Below are positions 18,466 through 32,196 of a stretch of 33,332 nucleotides of DNA, one piece after another. Below the pieces are notes generated by a model. The model did not search any database. It worked only from the letters and a program-made list of their open reading frames with translations, and had not been told where the DNA came from. The DNA comes from Alkalibacterium sp. (lineage in GTDB: Bacteria > Bacillota > Bacilli > Lactobacillales > Carnobacteriaceae_A), in the NCBI GenBank assembly GCA_007692455.1, contig RECC01000025.1:1-33332 (forward strand). Direction: 5' to 3'. The translations under genes were made by a program, and so were the position numbers. Numbering within the stretch: the stretch's first letter is position 1; each line of letters starts with the position of its first letter.

Positions 18466-18816
18466 TTCGGTAGACTCAGAAACATATAGTGGTGAGTTTG
18501 CTTAAGTGGCTTGGTCTTGGGTAGACTCTGAGGGGAAATAGATACTGAGTTCACCGAAGAAGCATGATGTTAGGCACACTCAAGAGGGAAAAGGTTTGGG
18601 TATGCCAAACCTTACATTATTTAGGTTAACCTGAACGATTTTATGGTCGAGTTAACCGAAGTTCAGACAAGTATGGCAGACTCCATTTCCCAGAAGCTCT
18701 GGGTTTACCTAAACACTGTCGAGTTCGGAAAACTCGGTGGCGGCGTCAGTTTGAGATTGCCTAAGAACCGGCAACTTAGGCAAACTCAAATGCTTATGAC
18801 AAAAATACATGCCGAA
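18466..18816. repeat. Phased inverted half-site array, TTCGGCAAACTCA family, 52-bp period (copy A, 7 units)
   Basis: Seven units of 40-42 bp start at 18466, 18517, 18570, 18621, 18672, 18724 and 18776. Each has a left half-site near TTCGGTAGACTCA, a middle of about 15 bp and a right half-site near TGAGTTCACCGAA. Units are separated by exactly 11 bp every time, giving a period of about 52 bp. Half-sites drift (TTAGGCAAACTCA, TATGGCAGACTCC; TGGGTTTACCTAA, TGAGATTGCCTAA), while the spacing is kept. Neighbouring halves across a gap can also pair: 18750-18765 with 18775-18790 matches at 15 of 16 positions. Middle and gap sequences are not conserved. The array starts about 45 bp after a terminator. 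It is the same family as 27219-27623. Confidence 0.87.
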
Positions 18817-26490: not shown

Positions 26491-27141
26491 ATGGTAAAAA
26501 AAGGAATGTGGGCGCTGATAGCCTTGGTACTGGCTTTCGTCGTCTATGATTTTGTTTCAGGACTGAACCGCGAACAGCAGGTCAGAGAACAGGCTGGTAT
26601 TCAGGTTCAGGAAGAGTTTGAAGATGATTCTATTGATCTGACGGACGAGGAACTGGAAGCCTTGCTTGAAGACCTGGAGAGTGATGTCATCAACACAACA
26701 TCAGAATCCGGAGTCGAATATGGCTTGCGCGCAGGAAATACGGCCTATGATTTCCAGTTGGAAGATATGGACGGCAATACGGTCAACTTATCAGATTTTA
26801 GAGGACAGAAAGTCTTTCTGAATTTCTGGGCGAGCTGGTGTCCGCCATGTCGAGTGGAAATGCCTCATCTGCAGGAATTTCACGAAGAAAATGATGACGT
26901 TATAGTATTGGGTGTGAATGTGATGTCTTCAGAAAGTAATCCGGAAAATGCCGGGAATTTTGTCGATGAGCTGGGACTGACTTTCCCGAACGTCTATGGC
27001 GTCGATGAAATCGTTGACTTGTACCTGGTTGAATCGCTCCCAACATCATATTTCATCGGCAGTGACGGAACGGTGTATGAGCGTGTCGTCGGACCGGTCA
27101 CCAAGGATATTCTGGAAGCCCGTTTTTCACTGATAGATTAA
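26491..27141 (+). CDS. Membrane-anchored thiol-disulfide oxidoreductase, TlpA/ResA-like
   Basis: Extracytoplasmic thioredoxin-fold protein of 216 residues. An N-terminal anchor helix (about residues 6-24, MWALIALVLAFVVYDFV) is followed by an acidic linker (about 40-65). The AhpC/TSA-Redoxin domain (about 78-216) begins with AGNTAYDFQLEDMDGNTVNL. The active site is FWASWCPPCRVEMP, with Cys117 and Cys120. The cis-proline loop is ESLPTSYFIG. The anchor and the CcdA neighbour suggest it is kept reduced by CcdA and reduces disulfides outside the membrane. GAGGAG precedes the ATG. A perfect terminator follows. Confidence 0.92.
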   Translation: MVKKGMWALIALVLAFVVYDFVSGLNREQQVREQAGIQVQEEFEDDSIDLTDEELEALLEDLESDVINTTSESGVEYGLRAGNTAYDFQLEDMDGNTVNLSDFRGQKVFLNFWASWCPPCRVEMPHLQEFHEENDDVIVLGVNVMSSESNPENAGNFVDELGLTFPNVYGVDEIVDLYLVESLPTSYFIGSDGTVYERVVGPVTKDILEARFSLID

Positions 27142-27158
27142 CAAAATTCTGAGTAGTC

Positions 27159-27200
27159 GACCTTCTTTCTAAATGGAAAGAAGGTCTTTTGTCGTTTTTT
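27159..27200 (+). terminator. Intrinsic terminator of the ccdA operon
   Basis: Perfect 11-bp stem GACCTTCTTTC (27159-27169) with 27176-27186, a 6-nt loop, then TTTTGTCGTTTTTT. Confidence 0.9.
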
Positions 27201-27218
27201 AATAGCATTACAGTGCTG

Positions 27219-27623
27219 TTCGGCAAACTGAATCATAAACCCTAGGTGAGTTCGCCGAATAGGATATCAGTTCGGCAGAGTGAGAGTAAACCACTGTCTG
27301 AGCTGACCGAAGTATAGAGCACTTGAGCAAAGTGGAAACTCGGCCGGCGCCGAGTTAACCGAAATAATTTAAATTCGGCAAACTCATCAACAAAACTGAA
27401 TTGAGTAGACCGAACTAAGTGTGGGTTCGGCAAAGTGAGCGATAAGCAGAAGATGAGTTTACCGAAGGAGGGCTCGGTTCGGCGAAGTGAAAGGAGACTA
27501 CTATCTGAGCTGACCGAAGTACAGAGCACTTGAGCAAAGTGGAAACTCAGCGAGCGCCGAGTTAACCGAATAAGAACCTTATTTGAGCAAAATGGAACTC
27601 AGTTGATAGCAGAGCGTGCCCAA
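27219..27623. repeat. Phased inverted half-site array, TTCGGCAAACTCA family, 52-bp period (copy B, 8 units)
   Basis: Eight units of exactly 41 bp start at 27219, 27271, 27323, 27374, 27426, 27478, 27530 and 27583. Each is a left half-site near TTCGGCAAAGTGA (13 bp), 15 variable bases and a right half-site near TGAGTTTACCGAA (13 bp). Gaps are 11 bp, with single exceptions of 10 and 12. Sixteen half-sites thus alternate in orientation at centre distances of 28 and 24 bp. The third, seventh and eighth units have TTGAGCAAAGTGG as left half. The block 27299-27363 is repeated at 27506-27570 with about four differences, 207 bp away, which is four periods. The half-site is the same as in 18466-18816. 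Confidence 0.9.
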
Positions 27624-27655
27624 AGCTCTTGCACAAATCGTTTTGCTAGAGAAGA

Positions 27656-27684
27656 TTGTTGTAAAATGATAGATTGAATATAAA
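27656..27684 (+). promoter_or_regulatory. Promoter of the acetoin reductase gene
   Basis: TTGTTG (27656-27661), a 17-bp spacer and TATAAA (27679-27684), 80 bp before the ATG and just after the array. Confidence 0.6.
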
Positions 27685-27764
27685 GATATTATCGGAGGTG
27701 GTCTTGGAGTTATTCTTTATGTATTAAGTAGATACAGACCGACTATATAGGAGGGAACTATTTA

Positions 27765-28544
27765 ATGTCAACTAACAAAGTAGCAGTCATTACAGGTGGT
27801 GCTCAAGGATTAGGTAAAGGAATAGCACAACGACTCGCAAAAGACGGATTCTCAATTGTGATAAGTGATATGGATAAGGATGCGCTGGATAAAGCGAAAG
27901 AAGAATTTTCAGGAAACGATGTATCAATCGAAACCTTTGAGGGCAATGTTTCCAAACTAGACGATCAGAATGCCCTAGTCCAGCATGCAGTAGATAAGTT
28001 CGGTCAGGTGGATGTCTTTATCAATAATGCCGGAATTGAAGGAGAAGTGGCACCTATCACTGAAGTCAAACCTGATAGTGTGGATTCAGTTCTCGATGTT
28101 AACATAAAAGGCGTTATCTACGGTATCCAGGCAGCTGCCAATCAGATGAAAAAGCAGGGCAATGGTGGAAAAATCATCAATGCCTGCAGTATCGCCGGAC
28201 AAGAAGGCTTTGAAATGCTGTCGCCTTATACTGCTTCAAAATTTGCGGTTAAAGGTCTGACCCAGGCTGCCGCTAAAGAACTGGCACCAGATAAAATTAC
28301 TGTGAATGCCTACTGTCCAGGAATTGCCGGTACAGGAATGTGGGACAGACTGGACGAAAAAATGATGGAACATATGGGAACTGAAAAAGGCGAAGCCTTT
28401 GAACAGTACTCACAGGAAATTGCATTAGGCCGAACGCAGGAACCAGAAGATGTAGCGAACCTGGTTGCATTTCTGGCTTCCAAAGATTCTGATTACATTA
28501 CCGGACAGTCTATCATTTCAGACGGTGGAATGGTCTTCAGATAA
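27765..28544 (+). CDS. butA: Acetoin reductase / 2,3-butanediol dehydrogenase (SDR)
   Basis: Short-chain dehydrogenase of 259 residues that reduces diacetyl to acetoin and acetoin to 2,3-butanediol with NADH. The NAD motif is [11 protein letters not shown] (residues 10-20), then NNAG (87-90). The catalytic residues are Ser142 (ACSIAGQEG), Tyr155 and Lys159 (YTASK). The family-typical [20 protein letters not shown] and the ending [19 protein letters not shown] point to BudC/ButA rather than a generic SDR. GGAGGG lies 10 bp before the ATG. It is monocistronic, with terminator at 28561. Confidence 0.9.
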
Positions 28545-28654: not shown

Positions 28655-28814
28655 TGAGCATACTAATGAAATGAATTCATTTAAAGTTTATTCATTTTCG
28701 GCAAAATTTAGTCAAAAGTAAAACGTATTCATGTTAGTCGATGCACAAACTCCCTTTAAAAATAACTGTTTTTCCTATAAAATAGAGCCGAATAGCAAGA
28801 AGGAGGCGCACCTC

Positions 28815-29204
28815 GTGAAACAGTTAAAGCAATTATTTTGGATACTTTTATTTTCATTCTTTGGTGAATTTTTATCACTAATCAGTCCGGTGGCCATTCC
28901 AGGAAGTGTAATTGGCATGGTACTGTTGTTTGTCGCTCTGCATTTTAAATGGGTTAAGATGGTTCAGGTTGAAGAAGTTGGAACGTGGTTAACGGATAAT
29001 ATGGCCATTTTCTTTGTTCCAGCGGGGGTAGGACTCATGACGAATTTCGATATTTTAGGAGACATTTGGTGGCAGCTGCTGGTAACAATACTTGTGACAA
29101 CAACACTGATGATTGCGTTTGTCGCAATTATTGTTCAGTGGCTCAAGCGCAGAACCGATCGGAAAGATCAACAGAAACCCCAGGCAGCAAAGGAGATGGT
29201 TTAA
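28815..29204 (+). CDS. lrgA: LrgA/CidA-family holin-like protein
   Basis: Small membrane protein of 129 residues, holin-like partner of LrgB. GTG 28815 is preferred as start because AGGAGG lies 8 bp before it and the product then begins KQLKQLFWILLFSFFGEFL. An upstream ATG 28 codons earlier lacks a ribosome site. The family motifs are PVAIPGSVIGMVLLFVALHF and LTDNMAIFFVPAGVGLM. Four membrane segments are followed by a basic, glutamine-rich tail (VQWLKRRTDRKDQQKPQAA). LrgAB/CidAB are linked to murein hydrolase control, overflow metabolism and pyruvate uptake. lrgB starts 1 bp after its stop. Confidence 0.92.
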   Translation: MKQLKQLFWILLFSFFGEFLSLISPVAIPGSVIGMVLLFVALHFKWVKMVQVEEVGTWLTDNMAIFFVPAGVGLMTNFDILGDIWWQLLVTILVTTTLMIAFVAIIVQWLKRRTDRKDQQKPQAAKEMV

Positions 29205-29205
29205 T

Positions 29206-29913
29206 ATGCTTGAATCATTTTCAGCTAACCCGTATTTTGGCTTGTTTCTGACGTTTTTCTTCTTTCTGTTAGGCACGCTTTTCCACCGGAGATGGCCGTC
29301 AAATCCACTATTCAATCCGCTGGTCTTTTCGATTACCAGTATCATCATTTTGTTGATAGTGACAGATTTATCCTATAACAATTACAACGAAGGTGGGCGC
29401 TTCATTAATTTCTGGATTACACCGGCGACGGTCGCTCTTGCCATCAAACTCGAGAAGAATTTTGTTTATCTTAAAAAGTACTATACAGCTATTTTATCAG
29501 GAATTGGTCTCGGGGTGACTTTCCATACGATTATATTGCTATCGGTTAGCATACTGTTTCAGTTTGATCAGGAACTCGTGGCGACTCTTTTCCCGAAATC
29601 CATCACGACAGCGATTGCTCTGGGAGTAGCCGAGTCGCTTGGCGGTATTGTCTCACTGACTGTTGCCATCGTTGTTTTTACAGGGGTGCTCGGTACAGTT
29701 GTCGGCCCACCAATCTTTGCGCTGTTTAAAATCGATGACCCGGTTGCACAGGGTGTGGCGTTAGGTTCAGGCTCGCATGCGATGGGAACAGCCAAAGCGA
29801 TAGAGCTGGGTGATGTTCAAGCAGCAATGGCAGGCTTGTCCATTATTCTGACAGGGATTGCAGTTGTTATACTCGCTCCTCTTGTCATGCCTTTAGTTAG
29901 TCTGCTATTTTAA
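29206..29913 (+). CDS. lrgB: LrgB/CidB-family membrane protein
   Basis: Membrane partner of LrgA, 235 residues, from ATG 29206 with GGAG 8 bp upstream. The family core is LFPKSITTAIALGVAESLGGIVSLTVAIVVFTGVLG, then DDPVAQGVALGSGSHAMGTAKAIELG, with the conserved GxxSHAxGTA. Seven or eight hydrophobic segments are present. LrgAB with the acetoin reductase upstream may reflect carbon-overflow metabolism, since in other Firmicutes the pair takes up pyruvate. That connection is an inference from proximity. Confidence 0.93.
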   Translation: MLESFSANPYFGLFLTFFFFLLGTLFHRRWPSNPLFNPLVFSITSIIILLIVTDLSYNNYNEGGRFINFWITPATVALAIKLEKNFVYLKKYYTAILSGIGLGVTFHTIILLSVSILFQFDQELVATLFPKSITTAIALGVAESLGGIVSLTVAIVVFTGVLGTVVGPPIFALFKIDDPVAQGVALGSGSHAMGTAKAIELGDVQAAMAGLSIILTGIAVVILAPLVMPLVSLLF

Positions 29914-30072: not shown

Positions 30073-30096
30073 TCTTCATAATGGCAGTCATTGTGA

Positions 30097-30222
30097 TCTG
30101 AACAGGCGGTGAACGCAGTTAAAGGTTCATGCAGCCGGGCTGCAGTATTGCGGCAGCAGACTATGTCAGTTAGGGGCGTATCTGTGGGACAGTTAATTCT
30201 GTTCTACGGGTATGCCCTTTTT
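30097..30222 (+). ncRNA. Probable NiCo (czcD) riboswitch with terminator expression platform
   Basis: The leader contains words I associate with the NiCo riboswitch: GAACAGGC, GGCAGCAGAC, TAGGGGCGTA (30171-30180) and GTGGGACAGT (30184-30193). They lie in a set of helices (TGAAC/GTTCA; TGCAGC-cgg-GCTGCA). The last part folds into a hairpin that includes GGGGCG and GGGACAG and ends in TTTTT (30218-30222), so metal binding would compete with termination. The downstream gene is a P1B-4 ATPase, a Co/Ni exporter class, which fits. The 5' boundary is approximate. The identification rests on motif memory and context. Confidence 0.7.
30173..30222 (+). terminator. Riboswitch terminator hairpin
   Basis: GGGCGTA pairs with TATGCCC (7 bp, one wobble) and GTGGGACAG with CTGTTCTAC (9 bp, two wobbles) around a TTAATT loop, then five T residues. 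It lies about 100 bp before the ATPase gene. Confidence 0.75.
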
Positions 30223-30321
30223 AGTATAATAAAGGTAACAGGAGGCGGTAGCGCTAAACCTAATTTTGAATGGAAAACATACTATTTGATGAAATTGAAT
30301 GGATAGAGAGAAGGGTTGAAA

Positions 30322-32196
30322 ATGAAGAACTATTTGATTAAAAGCAGGCAGGGTCAATTCCTTGTTGCCGGTATCATTTTTGCTACAGCCGGCTTTTTTG
30401 CGGGAGTGACTGGTAACGAGTTCAGTCGATGGCTATACTACATTGCTATATTTTTCCTTGGCTTTTATGCGTCTAAGAAAGCTGTGGTAGAAACCATTAA
30501 AGGAAGATCCCCGAATGTCGACTTGCTGATGATTCTGGCAGCAATCGGCGCCGTTATTATTAATTTCGAATCAGAAGGTGCGGCACTGCTGTTGATATTT
30601 GCTTCAGCTGAGGTACTGGAAGATTATGCGACCAGCAAGTCCACCAGCGCTATTTCAGAACTGATGGCTCAAGTTCCGGAAACTGCCCAGGTATTGAAAG
30701 CTGATGGGGAAGTAGTCACAATTCCGACAGAGGAACTTAAAATTGGAGACCAGGTGGTTGTCTCCAAAGGTGAGCAGGTTCCTATCGATGGATCAGTTGA
30801 CCGGAAAGTAATTATTAATGAGGCAGCTCTAACAGGCGAAGCCATACCGGTCGAAAAAGAGAGCGGCGATGAAGTGTTCGCTGGTACGCTGAATGAAGGG
30901 AATGTGTTCAACTTAGAGGTGCTGAAAACCAGTGATCAGACGGTTTTTTCTAATATAATCCGTATGGTGGAAGAAGCACAAAGCCGACCTTCCCGTATCT
31001 CAAAGTTCATTGACCGGATTGAAAGTAAATACGTCATATCCGTGTTAGTTCTGGTTCCAGTCTTTATTTTCTTTATGTACGCTGTTCTGTCAGTACCGTT
31101 TGAAGAGGCTTTTTACCGAGGCATGGTCTTCCTGACTGTGGCTAGTCCTTGTGCATTAGTCGCTTCCGCAACACCAGCCACCTTGAGTGCCATCAGTAAC
31201 GGAGCTAAAAACGGCATATTGTTTAAAGGCGGTGCGGCAATGGAAGCTCTCAGCACCATGGAAACCTTGTTTACAGATAAAACCGGCACCCTTACTTACG
31301 GGGAATTCAAGGTAGATGATTACAGCCTACCGGAGGAGACATTGAAAGAAGTTATCTTCATGGAACAGCAGTCCAGTCACCCCATCGCCCAGGCTATTGT
31401 CTCCGCTTTTAAAGAAGTGGACTTAAGCACAGTCAACCAGAAAGAAGAGGTGAATGAAGTGGCCGGATCCGGCATACAAAAGGGTCAAATACGTGTCGGC
31501 AAGCCCAAAGCCTTCAGTGATTTTGCTCATTACGAAGACTTTAAGCAGTACTTTAATAAGGGAAATACCATCATTCTTGTCGCTGAAAAGGATACAGTCG
31601 TGGGTTACTTTTCACTGAGCGATCAGCTTCGCCTGCAGGCAGCTGAAGCCGTTGAACAGTTTCAGAAAGAAGGCATCAAGGTAACACTTCTGACGGGAGA
31701 CAACGAAGAAGTGGCTGAAAAAGTAGCTAAGGTCGTGGGAGTTGACCGCTATATTGCGGCGATGCTTCCCGAAGACAAAATCACGTATGTAAAAGACAGT
31801 CAGAACAAAGAAGAAGTGGTTGGTATGATTGGAGATGGCATTAATGATGCGCCGGCTCTGGCTAATGCGGATATCGGGATTGCGATGGGCAGTGGGTCCT
31901 CGGTCGCCATGGAATCCTCAGATGTGGTTGTCGTTCAAAACGACCTGTCCCGCCTTTTCTACAGCTATAAGTTAAGTAAACGGCTCAATAAAATCATTTT
32001 TCAGAATGTTGTCTTTTCGATTACTGTGATTGTGTCGCTGATTATTTTGAATCTTTTTGGTGTTCTTGGCCTGCCTTTGGCTGTTCTGCTTCATGAAGGC
32101 TCGACGATTCTGGTTATCCTGAACGGCTTGCGCCTGATTGGTTCAAAGCCACCAAAAAATAAAGAAGTTAAACCGGTTCAGACTGTAAAAGCCTGA
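30322..32196 (+). CDS. P1B-4-type metal-transporting ATPase (Co2+/Ni2+/Zn2+ exporter class)
   Basis: Heavy-metal efflux P-type ATPase of 624 residues. ATG 30322 is chosen because GAAGGG lies 7 bp upstream; a TTG two codons earlier is less likely. There is no N-terminal CxxC metal-binding domain. Two hydrophobic hairpins open the protein. The actuator motif is ALTGEAIPVEKE. The membrane metal site is ASPCALVA (Ser275-Pro276-Cys277). Then come DKTGT (phosphorylated Asp319), the SHPIAQAI nucleotide-domain His-Pro motif, TGDN, and GDGINDAPALA. The last membrane region has LHEGSTILVILNGLRL (His591-Glu592-Gly593). SPC plus HEGST defines subgroup P1B-4 (CoaT/CtpD/ZosA-like), which exports Co2+ and sometimes Ni, Zn or Fe. 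The NiCo-like leader supports cobalt/nickel. Confidence 0.92.
   Translation: MKNYLIKSRQGQFLVAGIIFATAGFFAGVTGNEFSRWLYYIAIFFLGFYASKKAVVETIKGRSPNVDLLMILAAIGAVIINFESEGAALLLIFASAEVLEDYATSKSTSAISELMAQVPETAQVLKADGEVVTIPTEELKIGDQVVVSKGEQVPIDGSVDRKVIINEAALTGEAIPVEKESGDEVFAGTLNEGNVFNLEVLKTSDQTVFSNIIRMVEEAQSRPSRISKFIDRIESKYVISVLVLVPVFIFFMYAVLSVPFEEAFYRGMVFLTVASPCALVASATPATLSAISNGAKNGILFKGGAAMEALSTMETLFTDKTGTLTYGEFKVDDYSLPEETLKEVIFMEQQSSHPIAQAIVSAFKEVDLSTVNQKEEVNEVAGSGIQKGQIRVGKPKAFSDFAHYEDFKQYFNKGNTIILVAEKDTVVGYFSLSDQLRLQAAEAVEQFQKEGIKVTLLTGDNEEVAEKVAKVVGVDRYIAAMLPEDKITYVKDSQNKEEVVGMIGDGINDAPALANADIGIAMGSGSSVAMESSDVVVVQNDLSRLFYSYKLSKRLNKIIFQNVVFSITVIVSLIILNLFGVLGLPLAVLLHEGSTILVILNGLRLIGSKPPKNKEVKPVQTVKA

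Follow-up and report, generated by a model that had tools for sequence, protein, structure and literature searches.

The REP/BIME sequences of enterobacteria occur as arrays of inverted units scattered between genes, often on their 3' side, the plasmid centromere sopC of F consists of tandem repeats of ~43 bp, each with an inverted repeat, that are bound by a partition protein, and BirA-type operators, which occur singly and at one regulon, hold two inverted half-sites about 28 bp apart from centre to centre. Each of them bears some likeness to the arrays described here, which were found in a window of 33,332 nucleotides (the whole stretch of DNA that was analysed, positions 1 to 33,332 of contig RECC01000025.1 from Alkalibacterium sp., assembly GCA_007692455.1) and in related genomes. 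Like REP/BIME, the arrays are intergenic and alternate in orientation, but they lack a covarying hairpin, consist of 13-bp half-sites with free spacers and belong to a genus in much of which RAYT is absent. Tandem repeats with an inverted repeat inside are also seen in sopC, yet here about 20 separate arrays with several specificities are present per chromosome, and no par genes were seen among the neighbours read. With BirA-type operators, whose geometry we give from general knowledge, the arrays share the half-site spacing of ~28 bp, whereas the half-site sequence differs and no link to biotin genes was seen among the neighbours read. A PurBox-like resemblance may also exist.

Among the literature compared, the STAR elements of Staphylococcus represent the closest described kind. 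These elements are intergenic and dispersed, consist of ~50-bp tandem units that carry a 14-bp GC-rich direct repeat, T(G/A/T)TGTTG(G/T)GGCCC(C/A), separated by locus-specific spacers of about 40-44 bp, expand and contract in unit number, have different flanking genes in different species and are of unknown function (PMC3532100). The Alkalibacterium arrays are likewise intergenic and dispersed, with a short motif, ~50-nt tandem units and locus-specific spacers. However, their half-sites do not match the STAR motif and alternate in inverted orientation (TTCGGYAAACTCA type) where STAR repeats are direct, their gap is exact nearly to the base, most diverged arrays comprise 6 or 7 dyads, and some array positions are common to several species. 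Abundant, short and intergenic repeats with an unproven role are further known from Beggiatoaceae, namely direct TAACTGA heptamers that lie mostly near start codons (PMC4679880); the abstract describes no dyad ruler for them, in contrast to the Alkalibacterium arrays. In the open-access literature, as covered by titles and the beginnings of abstracts (subscription papers lying outside this coverage), no description of such arrays in these genera was found.

Array B and related arrays of the same genome

The preliminary description had reported sixteen alternating half-sites in eight 41-bp units, here called array B (Table 1). This observation is real and was confirmed, as all eight units lie at the claimed starts and each shows a 13-15-13 layout. 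The rhythm, thought to be a strict 52 bp with 11-bp gaps, is not exact everywhere, with steps of 52, 52, 51, 52, 52, 52 and 53 bp and gaps of 11, 11, 10, 11, 11, 11 and 12 bp, and the quoted consensus is exact only for the unit at 27426, the half-sites being degenerate and those of the last unit weakest. That only half-sites and spacing are kept, but not the bases between, holds for most other arrays of the window's genome (G000), in which spacers are unrelated between units (21 of 22 scored arrays count as diverged). In array B itself these bases are partly kept, since 27218-27363 and 27425-27570 are 80% identical, which corresponds to an internal shift of 207 bp or four units. Left and right half-sites of array B represent one motif in inverted orientation. 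With a held-out half-site matrix, trained on 217 half-sites from outside the window, its 16 half-sites reach a chain score of 203.2, compared to a best score of 23.0 among 40 first-order Markov copies of the window.

Table 1. Coordinates of the two arrays and of neighbouring features in the window
Feature	Position	Strand	Remarks
Array A	18466..18816	.	array B's family, seven units; positional orthologues L106 (G004) and L145 (G011)
ResA/TlpA-like thiol-disulfide oxidoreductase	26491..27141	+	upstream neighbour of array B
Intrinsic-terminator-like stem with T tail	27159..27186	+	between upstream gene and array B; consensus match only (shuffles yield 0.8 such matches per region)
Array B	27219..27623	.	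eight 41-bp dyad units (half-site TTCGGYAAASTSA, 15 bp, inverted half-site), 10-12 bp gaps, 4-unit internal duplication
Array B unit 1	27219..27259	.
Array B unit 2	27271..27311	.
Array B unit 3	27323..27363	.
Array B unit 4	27374..27414	.
Array B unit 5	27426..27466	.	identical to the preliminary consensus
Array B unit 6	27478..27518	.
Array B unit 7	27530..27570	.
Array B unit 8	27583..27623	.	weakest unit
Acetoin reductase-like short-chain dehydrogenase	27765..28544	+	downstream neighbour of array B

The window contains a second array of the same design, array A, with a chain score of 159 on the held-out matrix; the scan found 13 half-sites, and a 14th (18804-18816) is a weak match recognised by eye. 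The chromosome has about twenty similar stretches; with fragments included, the arrays read in G000 number 25. An exact one-dyad pattern matches 11 times in forward and 10 times in reverse orientation in this genome, and its reversed control not at all. Nine arrays, seven from G000 and two from other species, align in register over 353 columns, and the profile derived from them gives 49 matches in G000 (E 0.01, both strands counted). The profile scan of the genome and its relatives that the preliminary description had proposed thus recovered further loci, and no match to a described repeat family emerged.

The half-site can be approximated as T-T-[CA]-G-G-[CT]-N-N-A-[CG]-T-[CG]-A and carries about 14.8 bits. 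Two inverted 13-bp half-sites, 28 bp apart from centre to centre, make up a dyad, and dyads recur with a period of 51-52 bp, i.e. about five helical turns, giving a ruler of 13-15-13-11. In the 19 arrays or fragments of family 1 in G000, which comprise 120 dyads on a single matrix, spacers measure 15 bp in 89 dyads, 14 bp in 29 and 13 and 16 bp in one each, and 105 of the 107 gaps are 11 bp long. Several families coexist in one genome, with a common ruler and differing outer half-site sequences: six further arrays or fragments of G000 combine other outer halves with an ACTCA-like inner part and the unchanged ruler (near GACCCGTAACTCA, TTGACGGAACTCA, TGGATACAACTCA and TAGTGGTAACTCA), and other species have additional families (TTCGGCTTATTCA in G006 and G011; AATGACANACTCA-like in G001, G003 and G008).

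Left and right half-sites do not covary, their covariation lying at or below that of shuffled controls. An early hint of anti-covariation in G000 (z -2.2 within units, -2.0 across gaps), which was weaker in G004 (z -0.5 and -1.6), vanished with within-array shuffling (z -0.7 in G000, +0.4 in G004), and we therefore limit the claim to the absence of covariation. From our point of view, it is very improbable that the arrays function as transcribed RNA hairpins, be it as a protein-sequestering RNA or as a guide-RNA array (TIGR-Tas, CRISPR-like). The array B strand does fold (z -3.8), and 75% of hairpin cells pair, a share that falls to 25-43% after a displacement by 1-3 columns; inverted repeats would be expected to give both results. 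The fold is suggestive, but shuffled controls do at least as well in paired cells, in two-sided changes and in covariation; 487 of 500 shuffles had a covariation score as high as that of the structure or higher, and the within-array shuffle shows no covariation either. Rfam gave no match over array A or B with the whole window at the gathering threshold, and none for 27140-27770 at E up to 1. TIGR-Tas was rejected, as the Nop/Tas family (PF01798), which the same search found in 4 of 14 control genomes (all archaea), is present in none of the 12 genus genomes, and the repeated spacers of homogenised arrays speak against spacers as guides. That the arrays are not CRISPR, as already stated in the preliminary description, fits the spacer sizes of 14-15 and 10-11 bp, and degenerate half-sites take the place of near-identical repeats with unique spacers of ~30 bp.

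The suggestion of a BIME-like array of alternating REP sequences did not hold up. REP/BIME-like arrays moved by a RAYT transposase would also be interspersed and intergenic, with alternating inverted units; the absence of hairpin covariation argues against them, as does the distribution of the transposase, a link to which had been proposed as a check. Y1_Tnp is present in 5 of 12 genus genomes and gives no match at E 0.001 in G000 (89.5% complete), G001, G003, G005, G007, G008 and G010, of which G000, G001, G003 and G008 are rich in arrays. Such a system appears hardly conceivable to us.

Distribution, position and turnover of the arrays

The profile matches all 12 Alkalibacterium genomes at E 0.01 and 11 of them at 1e-4, with G007 showing two weak matches at the former threshold, none at the latter and no clear array. 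In a pattern scan of named genomes, matches were restricted to Alkalibacterium sp. 20 and A. olivapovliticus. A generic core pattern, which requires an ACTCA core and could hence miss other families, was found in 25 of 395 sampled Lactobacillales genomes, namely 11 from Alkalibacterium, three from elsewhere in its family, every one of the six Carnobacterium genomes sampled (another family) and five genomes with a single match (G027, G101, G227, G265 and G273) that are at control level and may be due to chance. The reversed control itself matches once or twice in each of about fifteen other Lactobacillales genomes. For G006, in which it matches almost as often as the core pattern (4/5 vs 6/5), only the profile was therefore relied upon. 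Among 161 genomes drawn from the class, a match was found only in G000; 148 of the others lie outside the order. A phage or plasmid origin has no support: viral contigs gave two pattern matches (L161, L162) without an array and none with the strict pattern, and one Carnobacterium array had no match in a comparison with plasmids and phages.

All arrays read are intergenic, in G000 apart from overlapping frames of 72-97 codons. With ORFs of at least 70 codons counted as neighbours, the 16 family-1 arrays of G000 for which both neighbours were read lie between convergent (5), codirectional (9) or divergent (2) genes. Nine of ten scanned neighbours match Pfam families and one matches none, among them tyrosyl-tRNA synthetase, prephenate dehydrogenase, a Y-family DNA polymerase, OsmC and a CstA protein, but no set of families recurs. 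This bears on the possibility that an ordinary transcription factor uses the arrays as operators to regulate the adjoining genes. Operators typically show dyad symmetry and helical phasing, which would fit; however, the lack of a recurring family set among the ten neighbours, the 5 convergent and only 2 divergent locations in G000 and the 18 of 48 Carnobacterium arrays between convergent genes make this quite unlikely.

Positional orthologues were derived from a table of 92 arrays or fragments from eight genomes, selected among the matches listed. Of the 25 G000 arrays, seven have such orthologues on both flanking genes and 11 on at least one, in each case with the same gene end facing the array (six rows with the other end, array B with L126 and five involving L146, were left out), and 14 are without a positional partner among the arrays tabled. 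G000 and G004 have five places in common on both flanks, where 0.22 would be expected at random if ~1,900 intergenic regions are assumed. For array A, the neighbours of the partner in G004 are 81 and 82% identical and those in G011 71 and 78%, the half-site being different in the latter genome. Spacers are near background across four orthologous array pairs. Since half-site identity in these pairs is about the same in and out of register (0.69/0.68, 0.62/0.62, 0.75/0.75 and 0.69/0.65), the sequence is saturated, and what remains is the motif and the ruler. A further place lies between a gene of 804 codons, identified by eye as pheT, and one read as zapA. It has an array in G000, and in 9 of 11 other genomes its 168-261 bp contain no array that could be recognised. 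In the remaining two, G006 and G011, this place holds L097 and L095, which, as judged by eye, represent arrays with a 52-bp period and another half-site, near TTCGGCAATTAG, compared to the TTCGGTAAACTCA type in G000.

Exactly 14 half-sites, i.e. seven dyads, are present in 12 of 17 complete family-1 arrays of G000. Of the remaining five, one each has 12, 15 and 16 (array B) and two have 13, among them array A, which reaches 14 if its weak half-site is included. The wider size counts cover 84 of the 92 tabled arrays, the others being at an edge or too short, and stem from array-by-array refinement, by which a chance half-site may be added at an end. Here, among 52 diverged arrays clear of any edge, 14 half-sites were counted in 22 and 12 in 13 (together 35/52), and in 40 the first half-site is a forward and the last one a reverse copy; in 32 homogenised arrays, the number spans 4 to 30. 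Unit number can change fast, as L110 (G004:C42) and L068 (G010:C3), which represent one locus with flanking proteins of 99-100% identity, have 18 and 12 half-sites, respectively.

One could also imagine a selfish minisatellite, in which a dyad repeat of ~51 bp spreads intergenically by slippage and gene conversion without any host function. The near-identical units in variable number of several relatives, an exact 52-bp unit deletion between direct repeats in G010 and the apparent exchange of 55 identical bases between arrays on C34 and C96 would agree with this. Nevertheless, we consider it unlikely: in G000, half-sites and gaps are kept amid unrelated spacers, for which selection is needed, positions are common and orientation is conserved between species, and diverged arrays mostly retain 6 or 7 dyads. 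A self-copying mobile element was also rejected, since only few pairs of G000 arrays (L053/L064, L056/L060 and L058/L060) share more than their half-sites.

Contigs of G000 end inside arrays that have identical 55-bp pieces in common (end of C34, C34:617-969 and start of C96; L053, L064), which indicates assembly breaks and, probably, array-to-array exchange at these places. In addition, a 258-bp stretch with an OsmC gene is 99% identical between L055 (G000:C25) and L065 (G010:C2), the pheT-like proteins being 75% identical, and looks like a recent transfer or a mobile insertion. Near the OsmC stretch of L065, G010 has ~3.6 kb extra beside a tRNA-like stretch that was recognised by eye.

Direction of the Carnobacterium arrays

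In Carnobacterium, the arrays repeat every 51 bp and their two half-sites differ slightly from each other, which gives the arrays a direction. With dnaA located in six genomes, this direction could be scored for 48 arrays, of which 36 point toward the origin (p 0.0007). These 48 belong to 60 loci taken from among the matches listed, from which some weak ones and arrays on contigs without dnaA had been excluded; the other 12 had no unit above 9 bits on the oriented matrix. The test was exploratory and not planned beforehand. When loci are grouped by common flanking genes to obtain independent ones, 25.5 of 34 point toward the origin (p 0.009 for 25, 0.003 for 26), and 21.5 of 27 if only strong arrays are considered (p 0.006 for 21, 0.0015 for 22). 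The orientation is kept in eight of nine orthologous groups. Polarity is seen best in convergent contexts (15/18, p 0.0075), for which reason gene direction does not explain it; divergent (6/8) and codirectional (14/21) contexts are not significant alone. Clustering near the origin was also considered and appears unlikely, as the distances of the arrays from dnaA looked spread.

A putative lattice of protein-binding sites

We suggest, with a probability of roughly one half, that each array represents a DNA-level lattice of sites for a putative family of sequence-specific proteins with a chromosome-scale role. A cooperative DNA-binding protein, one of the two possibilities raised in the preliminary description, is the reading that survived best, given the fixed helical ruler, the conserved motif and the lack of left/right covariation, although no binding protein was found, which we count against the lattice, together with the incomplete positional conservation, the fast changes in unit number, the lack of a clear array in G007 and the exploratory nature of the polarity test. 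The presence of arrays at several of the same places in relatives despite the change in sequence suggests that they serve as docking platforms for a putative chromosome-binding protein. The common places between transcription units, the unrelatedness of the neighbours and the polarity all suggest a function in chromosome layout or replication. Most likely, the arrays act on the scale of the chromosome, where they might mark domain boundaries, serve as anchors or affect passing forks, and do not primarily regulate adjacent genes.

The sites appear to be under selection as DNA, and from this we infer how such a lattice might work. A protein dimer reaching across 28 bp would bridge each dyad, and the step of 24 bp over the gap, together with the ~52-bp period, would put successive dyads on one face of the helix. 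Neighbouring dimers could then stack, with 6-7 of them forming a compact complex of fixed size that covers 300-350 bp. The several half-site families imply paralogous proteins, possibly one for each array family of a genome, that would differ in their specificity for the outer half and have a common quaternary geometry. It is conceivable, though doubtful at present, that these arrays represent a new class of chromosome element, namely fixed-size, replication-polar nucleoprotein lattices at conserved places, with paralogous proteins of one geometry and a recognition sequence that changes from species to species in step with the arrays of the respective family.

Bacterial intergenic repeats rarely yield a testable hypothesis, whereas here the ruler, the usual copy number, many positions and the polarity in Carnobacterium are kept despite sequence change. 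This pattern suggests a specific protein machine by which culturable lactic-acid bacteria organise or replicate their chromosome, and also a DNA-protein recognition system with several parallel specificities, the coevolution of which could be read directly.

Apart from this, frames of 127-221 codons stay open through the Carnobacterium arrays L178, L179, L177 and L212 because the period is 51 bp, and such frames could be misannotated as proteins with 17-residue repeats. In the window, lrgA- and lrgB-like genes (28731-29913) have longest reading frames that overlap by ~90 bp, and a NiCo riboswitch (Rfam RF02683, 62.7 bits) at 30088-30194 (+) lies just upstream of a cadmium-family heavy-metal P-type ATPase (30316-32196).
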